Shown: positions 6,063 through 29,683 of the stretch, piece by piece | Layout of the letters: every line of letters begins with the position of its first letter | How positions within the stretch are numbered: position 1 is the stretch's first letter | Assembly (NCBI RefSeq): GCF_004343305.1 | Contig: NZ_SMAF01000012.1 | Span: 1 to 64,000, forward strand | Source: Pseudofulvimonas gallinarii | GTDB taxonomy: Bacteria > Pseudomonadota > Gammaproteobacteria > Xanthomonadales > UBA2363 | Direction of reading: 5' to 3' | Length of the DNA: 64,000 bases | Program-made: the position numbers and the translations under genes | Notes under the pieces: generated by a model | The model's database searches: none | What the model saw: only the letters and a program-made list of their open reading frames with translations | What the model was told of the DNA's origin: nothing

Positions 6063-7451
6063 ATGATCCGTGCAAGGGTGGCTTTGGCGCTGTTTGTTGC
6101 GGGCGCGGCGTCGGCGCAGGCGCAGCCGCGCATCGCGGTGACGGAAATTGACCGTGCCCAGTTGCCGGCGGAGGAATTCCGGCTTGACGGTCTGAGCCGT
6201 AATGGCGAGCCGACCTGGTTGCGCCTGCGGCAAATTCCCGCCTTCACGCCTGATGCGCGGCTGGTCGTGGTTGGTCCGGATGGCGCCGAACGTGAGAGGA
6301 CTGTGCCGGAGCTACGGCATTTCGCGGGCACCGAACGGGGACAGGCGGGCGCGCGCGTGTTCATGTCCCTTGGCGGCGATGGCAGCATCCGTGGCTGGGT
6401 GACGAGGGGGTCGCAGGTCGAGGCATTCGCACGGCCGGCCGGGTCCGGCGGCGCCAGCGTGCTCTCGCTGCAGCGACTGGAGATGGGCCGTGGGGACGGC
6501 GACGGTTTCAGCTGTGCTGCGGACGACCTCGGGTTGGCGCCGGAGCCGGAAGCCCTCGCTGCCGCCGTTCGGGCGTCCGGTACAGCGGAGCCGAGTGGCT
6601 CGGCGCCCAGGATGGCGCGCATCGCCGTGGAAACGGACCTCTCCTACCTGGCGCTGTTCGATGGCGACGTGGACAAAGCCACACGCTATGCGGTCGACAT
6701 GATCGGTTTCGCCTCGGCGACCTATATCAACGAAACCGGTTATGGCCTGGCGGTGACGTACCTCCGCTTCTGGGAGGGCTCCGAACCCTGGGTGCAGACC
6801 AGTTCCACCCACTGCCGCCTTTTCGAGTTCGGCCAGTACTGGAACGTCCACATGGAGGATCTGCAGCGCTCCACCGCCGTCATGTTCTCGGCGCAGACAC
6901 CACGGGGCGGTCTCGCCTGGTTCCCGTCGCTGTGCAGCTCGTCGTTCAACTCGGACATCACCTATGCCAATTGTCCCGGGATGACCGGCTCACTCAATGT
7001 GGGCGGCGCGTATGCCTACGTCGGCGGGATGTACGGCTCCTTCAATCCCGCGCAGCCGCAGGTCATGTGGGACAGCATGGCTACCGCTCACGAGATCGGG
7101 CACAACCTCGGGTCGCCGCATACGCATTGCTACGCCAACTATCCCGGCAACGGTGCGCCCGTGGTCGACCAGTGCGCCACCGAGGCCTCGTCCAGCTCGA
7201 GCCAGTGTTACGAGTCGGGTCCAACCTCGCTGCCGGGGCCCCAGGGCCAGGGCAGTGGCACGCTGATGAGCTATTGCCATCTGCAGCCCGGCGGTTTCGG
7301 CAACGTCACCTTTACCCTCGGTGCAGGCCACCCATGGGGCGACCAGCCGGAGCGGGTGCCGGCGCGCATTGGCGCGTATGTGCAGCAGCGGGATCTCGCA
7401 GCACCGGGATGCTTCTTCAGTGACGGGATTTTCGCTGACGGTTTCCAGTAG
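6063..7451 (+). CDS. Secreted zinc metalloprotease, reprolysin/M12-like
   Basis: Predicted extracellular zinc endopeptidase. The ATG at 6063 is preferred over two in-frame GTG codons just upstream, because it starts a compact signal peptide (MIRARVALALFVAGAASAQA). A prodomain-like region extends to about residue 180. The catalytic domain has the zinc motif HEIGHNLGSPH (first His at 343), i.e. HExxHxxGxxH, and many Cys residues expected to form disulfides. The chain ends DGIFADGFQ, a short tail shared in form with the exported protein at 16080-16883. It is divergent from sahR, with about 130 bases between. The substrate is unknown. The exact subfamily (M12B, or another metzincin) cannot be settled by eye. 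Confidence 0.8.
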   Translation: MIRARVALALFVAGAASAQAQPRIAVTEIDRAQLPAEEFRLDGLSRNGEPTWLRLRQIPAFTPDARLVVVGPDGAERERTVPELRHFAGTERGQAGARVFMSLGGDGSIRGWVTRGSQVEAFARPAGSGGASVLSLQRLEMGRGDGDGFSCAADDLGLAPEPEALAAAVRASGTAEPSGSAPRMARIAVETDLSYLALFDGDVDKATRYAVDMIGFASATYINETGYGLAVTYLRFWEGSEPWVQTSSTHCRLFEFGQYWNVHMEDLQRSTAVMFSAQTPRGGLAWFPSLCSSSFNSDITYANCPGMTGSLNVGGAYAYVGGMYGSFNPAQPQVMWDSMATAHEIGHNLGSPHTHCYANYPGNGAPVVDQCATEASSSSSQCYESGPTSLPGPQGQGSGTLMSYCHLQPGGFGNVTFTLGAGHPWGDQPERVPARIGAYVQQRDLAAPGCFFSDGIFADGFQ

Positions 7452-16079: not shown

Positions 16080-16883
16080 TCAGTGCTGCGATCCGGAGGC
16101 CGTTGGCGATGCCGGCTCGAAAGAATCGGCGAAAATGACGTCATCGATCCGGCGGACGTCGATGTTGTCGACGCTGATCAGGCTGTTCGTGGGGGTATTC
16201 CACGCCATCCCGACGAGCAGGCCACCGATGCCGCGGCCGTCAGGCGCGACGCCGAAGGCGCGATCGGTGACGCGCGGCACGTCATTGACCCACAGGGTGT
16301 AGATGCGCTGGTCCATGTCGTAACGCCAGTGCAGCTTCACCAGCGAACCCGGACTCCAGATGCCGCCGACGCTGGTGGCCTGGCCGGCGGCATCGGAAAT
16401 GGTCATGCCGCCTGATCCGCCCAGCGTGATCGTCGAGTACGACCGCGCCGCGCCGCCATGCTCGCGCAGGTAGACGTTGTACTGGCTCCAGCTGCCGGGC
16501 ACGAGGTCGATGCGGATGTCCACGAGGCCGTCGGTGACTTCCTGCTCGCCAAGGAACGAGAAGCGGACGGTCGCGGCAGTGATCGGGTCGCCAGCCCAAC
16601 CGATGTCCAGTGACGGCGTCGGAAATGCGCTGTTGCGGACGATCGCGCTCAGGAGCGAGGGCACTTCGAACGGCTGGCCGGCAGCCGCACCGCCCTGGCC
16701 GATCGGGGTATCCAGCGGAAGCGCGTTGAAATCGGCCTGCAAGAGGATGGTGCCGCCGGTGGCTTCCGGATCGGCGATCTCATCGGCCAACGCCGGGTCA
16801 GGCACGCCTGCTGACGAAAGCGCGGCGAACGTCGACAGGCAGAAACCCAGGCAGGTCGAGGCAAAAGGGTGTTTCACGGTCAT
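16080..16883 (-). CDS. Exported protein of unknown function with IFADSFE tail
   Basis: A 267-residue protein with a signal peptide (KHPFASTCLGFCLSTFAALSSAG) and a beta-rich body that looks like a jelly-roll or concanavalin-like fold (DFNALPLDTPIGQGG, GWAGDPITAATVRFSFLGEQEV, KLHWRYDMDQRIYTLWVNDVPRV, SVDNIDVRRI). The end is DDVIFADSFEP plus a short extension, close to the IFADGFQ end of the protease at 6063-7451. ATG 16883 is annotated. However, AAGGAG lies only one base before it and seven bases before an in-frame GTG at 16877-16875, so the GTG may be the true start. No enzyme motif is evident. Confidence 0.7.
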   Translation of the reverse strand: MTVKHPFASTCLGFCLSTFAALSSAGVPDPALADEIADPEATGGTILLQADFNALPLDTPIGQGGAAAGQPFEVPSLLSAIVRNSAFPTPSLDIGWAGDPITAATVRFSFLGEQEVTDGLVDIRIDLVPGSWSQYNVYLREHGGAARSYSTITLGGSGGMTISDAAGQATSVGGIWSPGSLVKLHWRYDMDQRIYTLWVNDVPRVTDRAFGVAPDGRGIGGLLVGMAWNTPTNSLISVDNIDVRRIDDVIFADSFEPASPTASGSQH

Positions 16884-27907: not shown

Positions 27908-29683
27908 ATGAAGACCGTGCCATGGCGTGTCATGTCCTGCCTGCTACTCACCTTTGCCGTGTCCTCCCTGCATGCCGCCAGCTATTCGGTGGGCGGCGCC
28001 GGCTGCACCCATCCGACCTTGCAGGCGGCGTTGAATGCCGCGGCGACGGCGGCAGGTGGGCCACATCGGATAAAGCTGGCGGCAGCTGAGCTGACGACCG
28101 TGGGCCTGACGCTCAATGCACCCGCCCACGACATCACGATCGAGGGCGGTTATGCGGGCTGCACGTCGGAAATGCCAACCGCTGGCGCCAGCACCACGAT
28201 CAGACAGACCGGTGCTGCGCGCGTGTGGTCGATGACCGGGGGCGACGTGGCGTTGCCGCGGCGGACGATCACGCTTATGCGGGTGCGGATTACCGGCGGC
28301 AATGCCGCCGCGGCGTCGGGTGGCGGCATTTTCGTCGGTGGCAAGCTGGAGCTGCGTCTGGCGCAAGGGGCCGTCGTGACAGGCAACCATGCGCTTGATG
28401 GCGGTGGCGTGGCCCTGTATTCCGGTGGCGAAGCCGTCGAAGACGTGGCCCGGCTGCGACTGGACGAAGGGGCCATGGTCCGGGACAACAGCGCGTCGCG
28501 ATTCGGCGGCGGCCTGCATCTGCTCGGGGGCGCGAATGCGACGCTGCTCGAGGGCGGCGTCAATGACAACACCGCATCACTCCGCGGCGGCGGCATCTAT
28601 CTGGACGGTCCGGGAACAGACCTGCGGATACAGACGTTCGGCCAATCCAGGGTCACGGTCGATGGCAATACGGCCGGACTGGCGGCGTTCTCCACCGGCA
28701 ATGGATATGGCGGCGCCATCTACAGCGCGCGTGCCCGCGTCCTTGCCGATACCACGGGGAGCCCGGGTGAGCACAAGATCTCCCTGTCGGGAAATACGGC
28801 CAATTTCGGCGGTGCCATCTACGCCGAGGGGCCGACCAACGGCACCTTCACATTTATCGAGCTGCGTGACAGCGCCATCACCGGCAACTACGCCCGGGGC
28901 AAGGGTGGCGCGTTCTATTCGCGCTTTGCCGTCGACTGGGTGATCACCCACGACAGCACCGGGCCGTGCGCTGTTTTCCTCCTTGGCCTGGTTCCGTGTT
29001 CGCTGGTATTCGGCAATGCGGCCGGCAATGAGGGGGCGCCCGGCTTCCCGGGCGGCGGCGTGTTCTTCCTGGCAAGTGATGCCGGCGTGTCGCGCAGCAT
29101 CGCGCGCGTCCGGCGCACGCTGTTCCAGTCCAACGAGGATATCGACGGCCGTGCAGCGATCATCGAGGCGGAAGGCGCGAACGAGTATCTGATCGAACGC
29201 AGCCTGTTCAAGGGCAATATCGCGGATGGCGGCGGCGCAACCTTTGCGGCCCTGTTCCGTTCGGGAAGCGCGAACAGCTGGCTGCTTTACAGCACCGTCC
29301 TGGACAACCACGTCGACCGCCTGTTCGTGTTCGGCGGTACCACGCTGAATGTCACCGGCAGCATCTTCTGGGACCCGGGCACGACGATATGGATGCAGCC
29401 GCCCTCGGCAATGACACATGGCGACTGCCTGATCTCCCATACCACGGCCAATCTCCCCGGATCGGTGCTGACCTGGGATCCACGCCTTGACTCACGTGGG
29501 CGGCCACGCAGGCGCTCCGACGCCTGGGACTACTGCGCGACCGCGGCGGCGGCCGACGCCGAGGGGCGCAACGGTTACGACATTCCGGGTGTGACGAACG
29601 CGTATGGCCTGTACGACCTCGGCGCCTACGAACAGGCCGACGTGATCTTCACGCACGGAATGGGCTCATACCCGATCAACTGA
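27908..29683 (+). CDS. Secreted right-handed beta-helix protein (paralogue 2)
   Basis: A 591-residue exported protein with signal peptide (VMSCLLLTFAVSSLHAAS) and a Gly-rich repetitive body (ASGGGIFVGG, ALDGGGVALYSGG, SRFGGGLHLLGG, SLRGGGIYLDG, NFGGAIYAEG) typical of a right-handed beta-helix. The opening YSVGGAGCTHPTLQAALNAA and the segment IEGGYAGCTSE parallel its divergent neighbour at 25898-27718. The C-terminus reads YDLGAYEQADVIFTHGMGSYPIN and keeps the DVIF part of the tail seen on other exported proteins here. About 190 bases separate the two start codons. Function unknown. Confidence 0.75.
   Translation: MKTVPWRVMSCLLLTFAVSSLHAASYSVGGAGCTHPTLQAALNAAATAAGGPHRIKLAAAELTTVGLTLNAPAHDITIEGGYAGCTSEMPTAGASTTIRQTGAARVWSMTGGDVALPRRTITLMRVRITGGNAAAASGGGIFVGGKLELRLAQGAVVTGNHALDGGGVALYSGGEAVEDVARLRLDEGAMVRDNSASRFGGGLHLLGGANATLLEGGVNDNTASLRGGGIYLDGPGTDLRIQTFGQSRVTVDGNTAGLAAFSTGNGYGGAIYSARARVLADTTGSPGEHKISLSGNTANFGGAIYAEGPTNGTFTFIELRDSAITGNYARGKGGAFYSRFAVDWVITHDSTGPCAVFLLGLVPCSLVFGNAAGNEGAPGFPGGGVFFLASDAGVSRSIARVRRTLFQSNEDIDGRAAIIEAEGANEYLIERSLFKGNIADGGGATFAALFRSGSANSWLLYSTVLDNHVDRLFVFGGTTLNVTGSIFWDPGTTIWMQPPSAMTHGDCLISHTTANLPGSVLTWDPRLDSRGRPRRRSDAWDYCATAAAADAEGRNGYDIPGVTNAYGLYDLGAYEQADVIFTHGMGSYPIN

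Follow-up and report, generated by a model that had tools for sequence, protein, structure and literature searches.

Tail-bearing genes in the window

The window, by which we mean the whole 64-kb stretch of DNA analysed, encodes an exported metalloprotease of the M12B (reprolysin-like) type that closes on a nine-residue motif (Table 1); its translated C-terminus is ...FFSDGIFADGFQ, with the stop codon at 7449-7451. A sequence-only reading of this DNA had proposed that several exported proteins of different folds end in such a tail, and translation bears this out for the protease and for a second exported protein, encoded on the minus strand, whose C-terminus is DDVIFADSFEPASPTASGSQH. The probable start of the latter is MTVKHPF..., and its signal peptide, recognisable by eye, was missed by our home-made rule. 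The proposal fares less well for the beta-helix-like protein (C-terminus ADVIFTHGMGSYPIN), which retains the D, I, F and G of the motif but has lost the final F-E. Its PSSM score compares with 18.2 and 18.8 for the two true tails of a 464-kb sample, and because one tailless protein scores 9.1, this tail is not above noise by score alone. The fourth proposed example, the VESFED of an M36 protease, has neither the I-F nor the D-G core in translation and was rejected.

Table 1. Tail carriers and tails in the window
Feature	Position	Strand	Evidence
M12B (reprolysin-like) metalloprotease, exported, tail carrier	6063..7451	+	PF13688, E 1.9e-17; signal peptide and tail in translation
Tail DGIFADGFQ	7422..7448	+	exact pattern match; 0 residues between motif and stop codon
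Exported protein, family unassigned, tail carrier	16080..16883	-	translation; Pfam gives no match
Tail DVIFADSFE, then 11 further residues	16116..16142	-	match with 2 mismatches; translation
Beta-helix-like exported protein, degenerate tail, weak case	27908..29683	+	weak PF02415 match; translation
Degenerate tail DVIFTHGMG, 5 residues from end, weak case	29639..29665	+	translation; PSSM 8.5, within noise reach

Frequency, position and composition of the tail

The source genome (3.45 Mb) was searched with a 27-base pattern encoding D-x-I-F-x-D-G-F-(E/Q), the reversed pattern serving as control. Exact matches numbered 19 versus 0 for the control, and with up to 3 mismatches 135 versus 3; with controls giving 0-3 matches, a chance origin of the tail was rejected. 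All but one of the exact matches (18 of 19) lie 0-4 residues before a stop codon at the ends of long ORFs, the exception (L013) being internal. Stretches fetched around most of the listed places with at most 2 mismatches (∼100 places listed) yielded 77 complete ORFs with a relaxed tail, of which 65 end 0-4 residues past the motif and all 77 within 16. Among these 77 the counts by position were D1 71; I3 60 and L3 15; F4 74; D6 47 and N6 22; G7 66; F8 75; and E9 56, Q9 11 and D9 8. The tail is conserved at the protein level, since codons are used in it much as elsewhere in the genes, apart from a certain shift in Ile and Asp, and since the 60 bases that follow the tails are unrelated (0 of 2850 pairs above 60% identity). 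Mobile or duplicated DNA at the 3' end was rejected as a source of the tail, the downstream DNA being dissimilar and synonymous codons varying. Upstream of the tails, 12 of 2926 pairs are more than 60% identical, and several carriers are paralogues.

Two further observations concern the source genome. Four of its proteins (L223, L224, L242, L254) bear a cysteine variant, ADG(I/V)(F/H/Y)C(D/N)(G/D)F(E/D), and the region G000:C6:113000-136500 holds a cluster of several tail genes with many CDxGAxE ends, by eye typical of choice-of-anchor Q.

Carriers of the tail

Signal peptides, called by a crude home-made rule, were present in 47 of 61 strict-tail genes, as against 52 of 154 neighbouring non-tail genes, some of which have degenerate tails (Fisher p 9e-9), and 66 of 296 non-tail genes of a wider sample (p 8e-16); the enrichment that the sequence-only reading had anticipated is thus borne out. 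The 464-kb sample (20 stretches plus the window) was not drawn randomly, is tail-poor and is of use for base rates only. Inside it, a tail-like score and a signal peptide were not significantly linked (2 of 67 versus 2 of 231, p 0.22), because it contains only 2 strict tails. Our rule finds no signal peptide in 14 of the 61 tail genes; for some of them the start had been placed too far upstream, the window gene at 16883 being one. A crude transmembrane-like stretch beyond residue 120 was seen in 7 of the 61. One DUF1501 carrier of the source genome has a Tat-like N-terminus by eye, and the Sedimenticola DUF1501 protein gave only a weak TAT_signal match. We regard it as almost certain that the tail is a tag on exported proteins.

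The carriers are diverse. Pfam assigns 69 models to the 77 tail proteins (overlaps counted separately), including beta-helix, FG-GAP, S8, M14, M64, GSDH, RCC1, LRR and Kelch. NCBIfam places 15 of the 77 in choice-of-anchor Q, 9 in CSLREA and 5 in rhombotarget A, and single carriers match MYXO-CTERM-anchored and myxosortase- or rhombosortase-dependent families; judging from the family names, relatives of the choice-of-anchor, rhombotarget and MYXO-CTERM/rhombosortase-dependent carriers presumably bear known sorting tails elsewhere. Matches to the M12 protease occur in 38 of 101 relatives, a count that includes the protease itself. By a lenient pattern, a tail is recognisable at the end of all 30 protease loci fetched (the query among them), 21 of which satisfy IF..GF(E/Q/D), and the tail sits at the very end even where 114-494 residues separate the matched part from the stop. 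A single homologous C-terminal domain was therefore rejected as the explanation, on the 69 Pfam models and on the spacing in the M12 homologues, as the sequence-only reading had expected. Its broader claim of a conserved C-terminal tag on many unrelated secreted proteins, which it took to suggest a sorting, anchoring or secretion signal, is well supported as regards the tag by the frequency of the tail, its C-terminal position and the diversity of its carriers. Doubled tails, with two motifs 3-5 residues apart at the C-terminus, occur in L098, L105, L358 and L374; three of these loci come from Marinicella records and L374 from a MAG named Alcanivoracaceae.

Distribution across genomes

Exact IF.(D/N)GFE matches were found in 55 of the 101 relatives, with a control of at most 1 per genome. 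In a class sample of 370 genomes, 19 genomes outside the order had 1-2 pattern matches each, 23 in all. On reading all 23, we found none positioned 16 residues or less from the end of an ORF longer than 100 residues; we attribute to chance the four (L327, L331, L337, L339) that stand no more than 9 residues from the end of short ORFs (26-42 residues). A scan of GTDB genomes gave, among the matches listed (at least 118 stretches), Dokdonella, Marinicella, Wenzhouxiangella, Tahibacter, Rudaea, Thermoanaerobaculia and many others. Among those listed, 87 of 123 exact matches have a stop no more than 13 residues away (no more than 4 in 63 of them), 10 of the 87 being on ORFs shorter than 100 residues; the other 36 have no stop so near or are open. 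In some Acidobacteriota matches the motif is followed by 21 or 41 residues or sits N-terminally (L075, L066, L097). In L097 and L405 the motif directly follows the signal peptide.

Of 17 named genomes in which exact IF.DGFE was counted, 8 from Thermoanaerobaculia or allied groups have 16-85 matches each and 0 controls. Tails of the Thermoanaerobaculia type are longer, IF.DGFESG(D/N)TSAW.., with the stop 8-13 residues past the motif in 15 of 16 loci fetched and an internal motif in the remaining one (L349). One long-form tail occurs in Marinicella litoralis (L136).

The motif within a jelly-roll domain

In Anaerolineae (Chloroflexi) the motif is internal, at the start of a jelly-roll domain. 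Ten Chloroflexi copies of the domain were selected by the motif, so its invariance among them is by choice; in two L161 copies that were not picked by the motif, the same place reads DDVIFKDDFES and TNMLFLDGFES. Nine long C-terminal tails, eight from Thermoanaerobaculia-type or allied genomes and one from Marinicella litoralis, match only the first ∼20 positions of the domain profile and then end (i-E 7e-5 to 2.5e-3). Motif and domain also occur in cis in G011 (L405), where the motif stands twice before a partner-type domain of the kind described below.

An AF2 model of the complete domain, built from 13 sequences, has a pLDDT of 84.9 and a pTM of 0.84 (pLDDT 76 in an earlier run with 10 sequences). 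VIA-align matched the model to glucuronan lyase 2zzj (Z 19.3, rmsd 2.6 over 199 residues) over a range that begins at model residue 1; this range gives ends only and does not imply a residue-by-residue match of the motif. Because the model lies on 2zzj from its first residue, the counterpart of the tail segment in a known jelly roll is probably the N-terminal part. The motif itself is poorly placed, with a mean pLDDT over the first ten residues of 34 in the 10-sequence run and 58 in the 13-sequence run, and it takes the shape of an extended stretch plus a helical turn with no clear strand. We speak of a donor segment as a safer term than donor strand, because the segment is moderately confident and is not drawn as a strand.

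A candidate partner lacking the motif segment

Profile A3, which represents the jelly-roll domain without the motif segment, found matches in 53 of the 101 relatives, usually one per genome. We read the partner type for 30 of the 53. Of these, 27 are small exported proteins consisting of a signal peptide, a Cys, a few residues, a Trp and then the domain; of the other three, L405 and L406 carry the segment or a variant of it in cis and L430 is a longer fusion. A profile of 23 partners (A4) aligned by hhalign with columns 11-214 of the complete domain (E 2.9e-34), and the partner thus lacks the ten columns that hold the tail motif. The situation resembles a donor-strand pair in that the acceptor lacks one segment of its fold and the missing segment is found on another polypeptide, the motif being present both in the cis domain and at the C-termini of the clients.

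The partner also tracks the tail. Among genomes with at least 2 exact tails, 43 have the partner and 11 do not, versus 10 and 37, respectively, among those with fewer than 2 (Fisher p 3.4e-9), and the excess of 3-mismatch matches over the 101 relatives has a median of 70 with the partner versus 16.5 without it (p 2.4e-13). The association persists under within-family permutation (p 3.2e-4 for exact tails and 4e-5 for the 3-mismatch excess), a correction made at family level only. The single f2 genome with exact tails (G090; n = 15) is also the only one with the partner; in f12 (n = 14), only G013 and G030 have exact tails and only those two have the partner; and the only f8 genome (n = 14) without the partner, G019, has 0 exact tails. 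G019 gave 46 matches at 2-3 mismatches, and in the 19 fetched there was no I-F tail on a long ORF. Of the 54 genomes that have two or more exact tails, the 11 without a partner match comprise 6 from f3, 3 from f7, G006 (12 tails) and G078, and partner divergence is a possible reason for these missing matches. Conversely, the partner is present in 10 of the 47 genomes with one exact tail or none, and 7 of these 10 belong to f9, a family with variant tails. In f9 genomes that still have the partner, tails with Arg in place of Gly occur (IFADRFQ in L278, IFRDRFE in L441), possibly a co-varying pair of variant tail and partner.

In two Sedimenticola MAGs (L091, L130) a tail gene is followed directly by the partner gene, and the genome of L091 (G477) has one exact IF.DGFE match. 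Four partners tested matched no NCBIfam family over cut-off, one showed a Pfam laminin-G similarity just under cut-off, and no enzyme family match over cut-off was obtained for the partners tested. Overall, we consider a functional link between partner and tag likely. The sequence-only reading had suggested looking for a co-occurring transporter, sortase-like or membrane gene; a co-occurring gene does exist in the form of the segment-less partner, but what it suggests is docking or anchoring on a split domain and not a transporter or sortase. The same reading had held that the tail has no described machinery. Searches of an open-access library turned up no description of tail or partner, and six tail strings sought in full text matched 0 papers; a strong candidate partner has now emerged here from co-occurrence and fold complementarity.

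Three other accounts of the tail were weighed against these data. In the first, an outer-membrane exporter, whether the type II secretion system or a different one, would read the tail as a secretion signal, with the partner as an accessory. GspD is indeed over cut-off in 99 of the 101 relatives, and exact tails are absent from G003 and G019, the two relatives lacking it; however, GspD is equally common in genomes free of tails, the 8 Thermoanaerobaculia-type or allied genomes with 16-85 exact matches all lack a GspD over cut-off (divergent secretins only), and the identity of the tail with the segment missing from the partner is left unexplained. Type II secretion as the sole reader was set aside on the distribution of GspD in both sets of genomes, and we judge the wider exporter account unlikely.

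LPXTG, PEP-CTERM, GlyGly-CTERM and MYXO-CTERM tags consist of a signature motif followed by a transmembrane helix and basic C-terminal residues. By analogy with these, the tail could be the cleavage or transpeptidation site of an undescribed sortase-like enzyme, an idea with which the choice-of-anchor-type families among the carriers are in keeping, as is the many-to-one pairing, typical of such systems according to PMC3237569. Yet with 65 of 77 tails ending 0-4 residues past the motif there is no room for a transmembrane or basic stretch, doubled motifs exist, and the tested partners have no match to an enzyme family. We hold a sortase-like reader to be very unlikely.

Finally, a jelly-roll domain since lost could have left the tails behind as functionless remnants that gene duplication then spread, given that the motif is identical to the start of the domain and that several carriers are paralogous. 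The variation of synonymous codons and the dissimilar downstream DNA described above argue otherwise, as do the retention of the tail at the end of protease homologues across the order and its tracking of the partner, and we find such an origin scarcely probable.

What may hold the partner

C-terminal repeats are present in the aligned partners of f7, f9 and f11 and, by eye, in the f3 partner L434. Compared with solved structures, the C-terminal part of profile A4 finds dockerins (best E 3.1e-4), and 12 of the 13 matches listed are cellulosomal proteins; single-sequence Pfam dockerin matches are below cut-off (2 of 6 partners). The aligned f1, f8 and Sedimenticola partners showed no dockerin, nor did the partners read from the source genome and of the Marinicella type. 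At eight f9/f7 loci, the gene directly downstream of the partner encodes a secreted protein whose N-terminal part matches solved cohesins (profile A5 of the 8 adjacent genes, best E 9.5e-9), with Pfam cohesin matches below cut-off for 2 of 3 single downstream proteins. Each of three cohesin-like neighbours tested has an IPTL-CTERM-like anchor at its end, with scores that exceed the curated cut-off in two and fall just short of it in one; three more such ends were recognised by eye, and two of the proteins are cut by the end of the locus. At the f11, f3 and two f9 loci a small secreted protein follows the partner. These small neighbours (profile A6) have no credible PDB match, and their profile similarity to the cohesin group is partly due to the signal peptide.

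Other lineages differ. Three SLH repeats are found in the Sedimenticola partner, whose gene either overlaps the tailed DUF1501 gene or comes immediately after it. A receptor gene in the same position beside DUF1501 in the source genome was sought and rejected, there being none in the 20 kb read there. The tailed DUF1501 gene itself follows a DUF1800-like gene both in the source genome (L404:5103-8451, by eye) and in Sedimenticola (L091:2360-5612, Pfam). Four f8 (Marinicella-type) loci (L438, L439, L411, L417) have the partner beside genes that by eye are sulfotransferase-like or membrane acyltransferase-like, hinting at a surface glycan. In the genus of the source genome the partner lies beside a small secreted protein; the source genome's own partner is encoded at L435:9452-10168 on the minus strand. 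Neighbours were read mainly from same-strand downstream ORFs, and the simple gene caller used missed the partner in 8 of 14 neighbourhood loci. We place anchoring to the surface or matrix through the partner at slightly less than an even chance.

Proposed mechanism

To our knowledge, bacterial C-terminal sorting tags are read by membrane proteases, sortases or dedicated exporters. The tail described here would work differently, as a C-terminal docking tag. D-x-I-F-x-(D/N)-G-F-E would be the detached N-terminal segment of a concanavalin-like (glucuronan-lyase-like) jelly-roll domain, and the small secreted partner that most tag-using genomes appear to encode, usually once, would be the same domain without that segment. 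Clients would first be exported by Sec or Tat, after which the tail of a client would complete the fold of the partner in the manner of donor-strand complementation. By completing this fold, the tails would tether many exported proteins to the partner, so that a single partner might attach dozens to ∼100 different proteins. Where the partner is dockerin-like, the complex could bind the cohesin-like protein encoded adjacent to it, often one with an IPTL-CTERM membrane anchor; in Sedimenticola the SLH repeats of the partner could serve instead, and in further lineages the partner might attach by acting as a lectin.

The data show the tag, its export bias and position, its co-occurrence with the partner, the matching boundary, natural cis fusions and, for some families, dockerin/cohesin similarity; we infer physical docking, non-covalent binding and the final location, and we rate docking by completion of the partner fold as somewhat more probable than its negation. 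A more general reading, to which we give an even chance, is that of a natural, genome-wide tag-and-catcher in which one secreted segment-less jelly roll acts as universal receptor, docking and receptor folding are one event, and the anchors are lineage-specific (dockerin with cohesin and IPTL-CTERM, SLH, perhaps glycan binding); the longer tag of Acidobacteriota should then pair with a shorter receptor. If true, a tag that is the missing piece of one receptor's fold would represent a different logic for building the cell surface, and it would explain the destination of the secreted proteases and the beta-helix, propeller and RCC1/LRR proteins of Dokdonella, Marinicella and their relatives. It would also supply a rule, readable from the genome, for predicting surface proteins and a natural peptide tag/receptor pair for protein display. 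Since we can name the partner, the tag and, for some families, the candidate anchor of the partner, the proposal is directly testable.

Comparison with known systems

The tail shares with GlyGly-CTERM/rhombosortase, PEP-CTERM/exosortase and MYXO-CTERM/myxosortase a short C-terminal homology on unrelated Sec-exported proteins, a sporadic distribution and many clients for one partner. It differs from them in having no transmembrane helix or basic end, all 77 tails ending within 16 residues of the motif, and in that no protease was seen; six tail peptides compared with NCBIfam matched no CTERM model. The candidate partner differs as well, being secreted, without an enzyme match and lacking exactly the tagged segment. 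The logic of our evidence follows by analogy that of the rhombosortase case, for which PMC3237569 describes many-to-one pairing, co-distribution and, where a genome has one client, adjacency of client and partner, as here in Sedimenticola. The C-terminal domain of type IX secretion is likewise a C-terminal signal on diverse surface proteins, but it spans 40-82 residues from cleavage site to end as described in PMC11969387, whereas the motif here has nine, short of the ∼40-80 residues of a type IX substrate.

Donor-strand exchange is a known way of joining secreted proteins, as exemplified by TasA (PMC9674648). As in chaperone-usher pili, type V pili and TasA, a segment-less beta-sandwich would here, by prediction, be completed by another polypeptide. 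Unlike in those systems, there would be one partner for many clients, the donor would be a C-terminal tag and the fold is concanavalin-like, and we noticed no filament, usher or chaperone.

The cellulosome offers a parallel in those families whose partner has dockerin-like repeats and whose next gene encodes a cohesin-like domain. Its dockerins are carried by the enzymes; here the dockerin would be on the adaptor (so far as part of the partners is concerned), the cohesin-like domain is on a second protein (A5), and the clients would attach via a nine-residue tail. SpyTag/SpyCatcher is an engineered split-domain tag made of a short peptide and a domain lacking that peptide. The system proposed here would likewise be a tag-and-catcher pair but, unlike SpyTag/SpyCatcher and with no covalent bond known, one that is natural and genome-wide.
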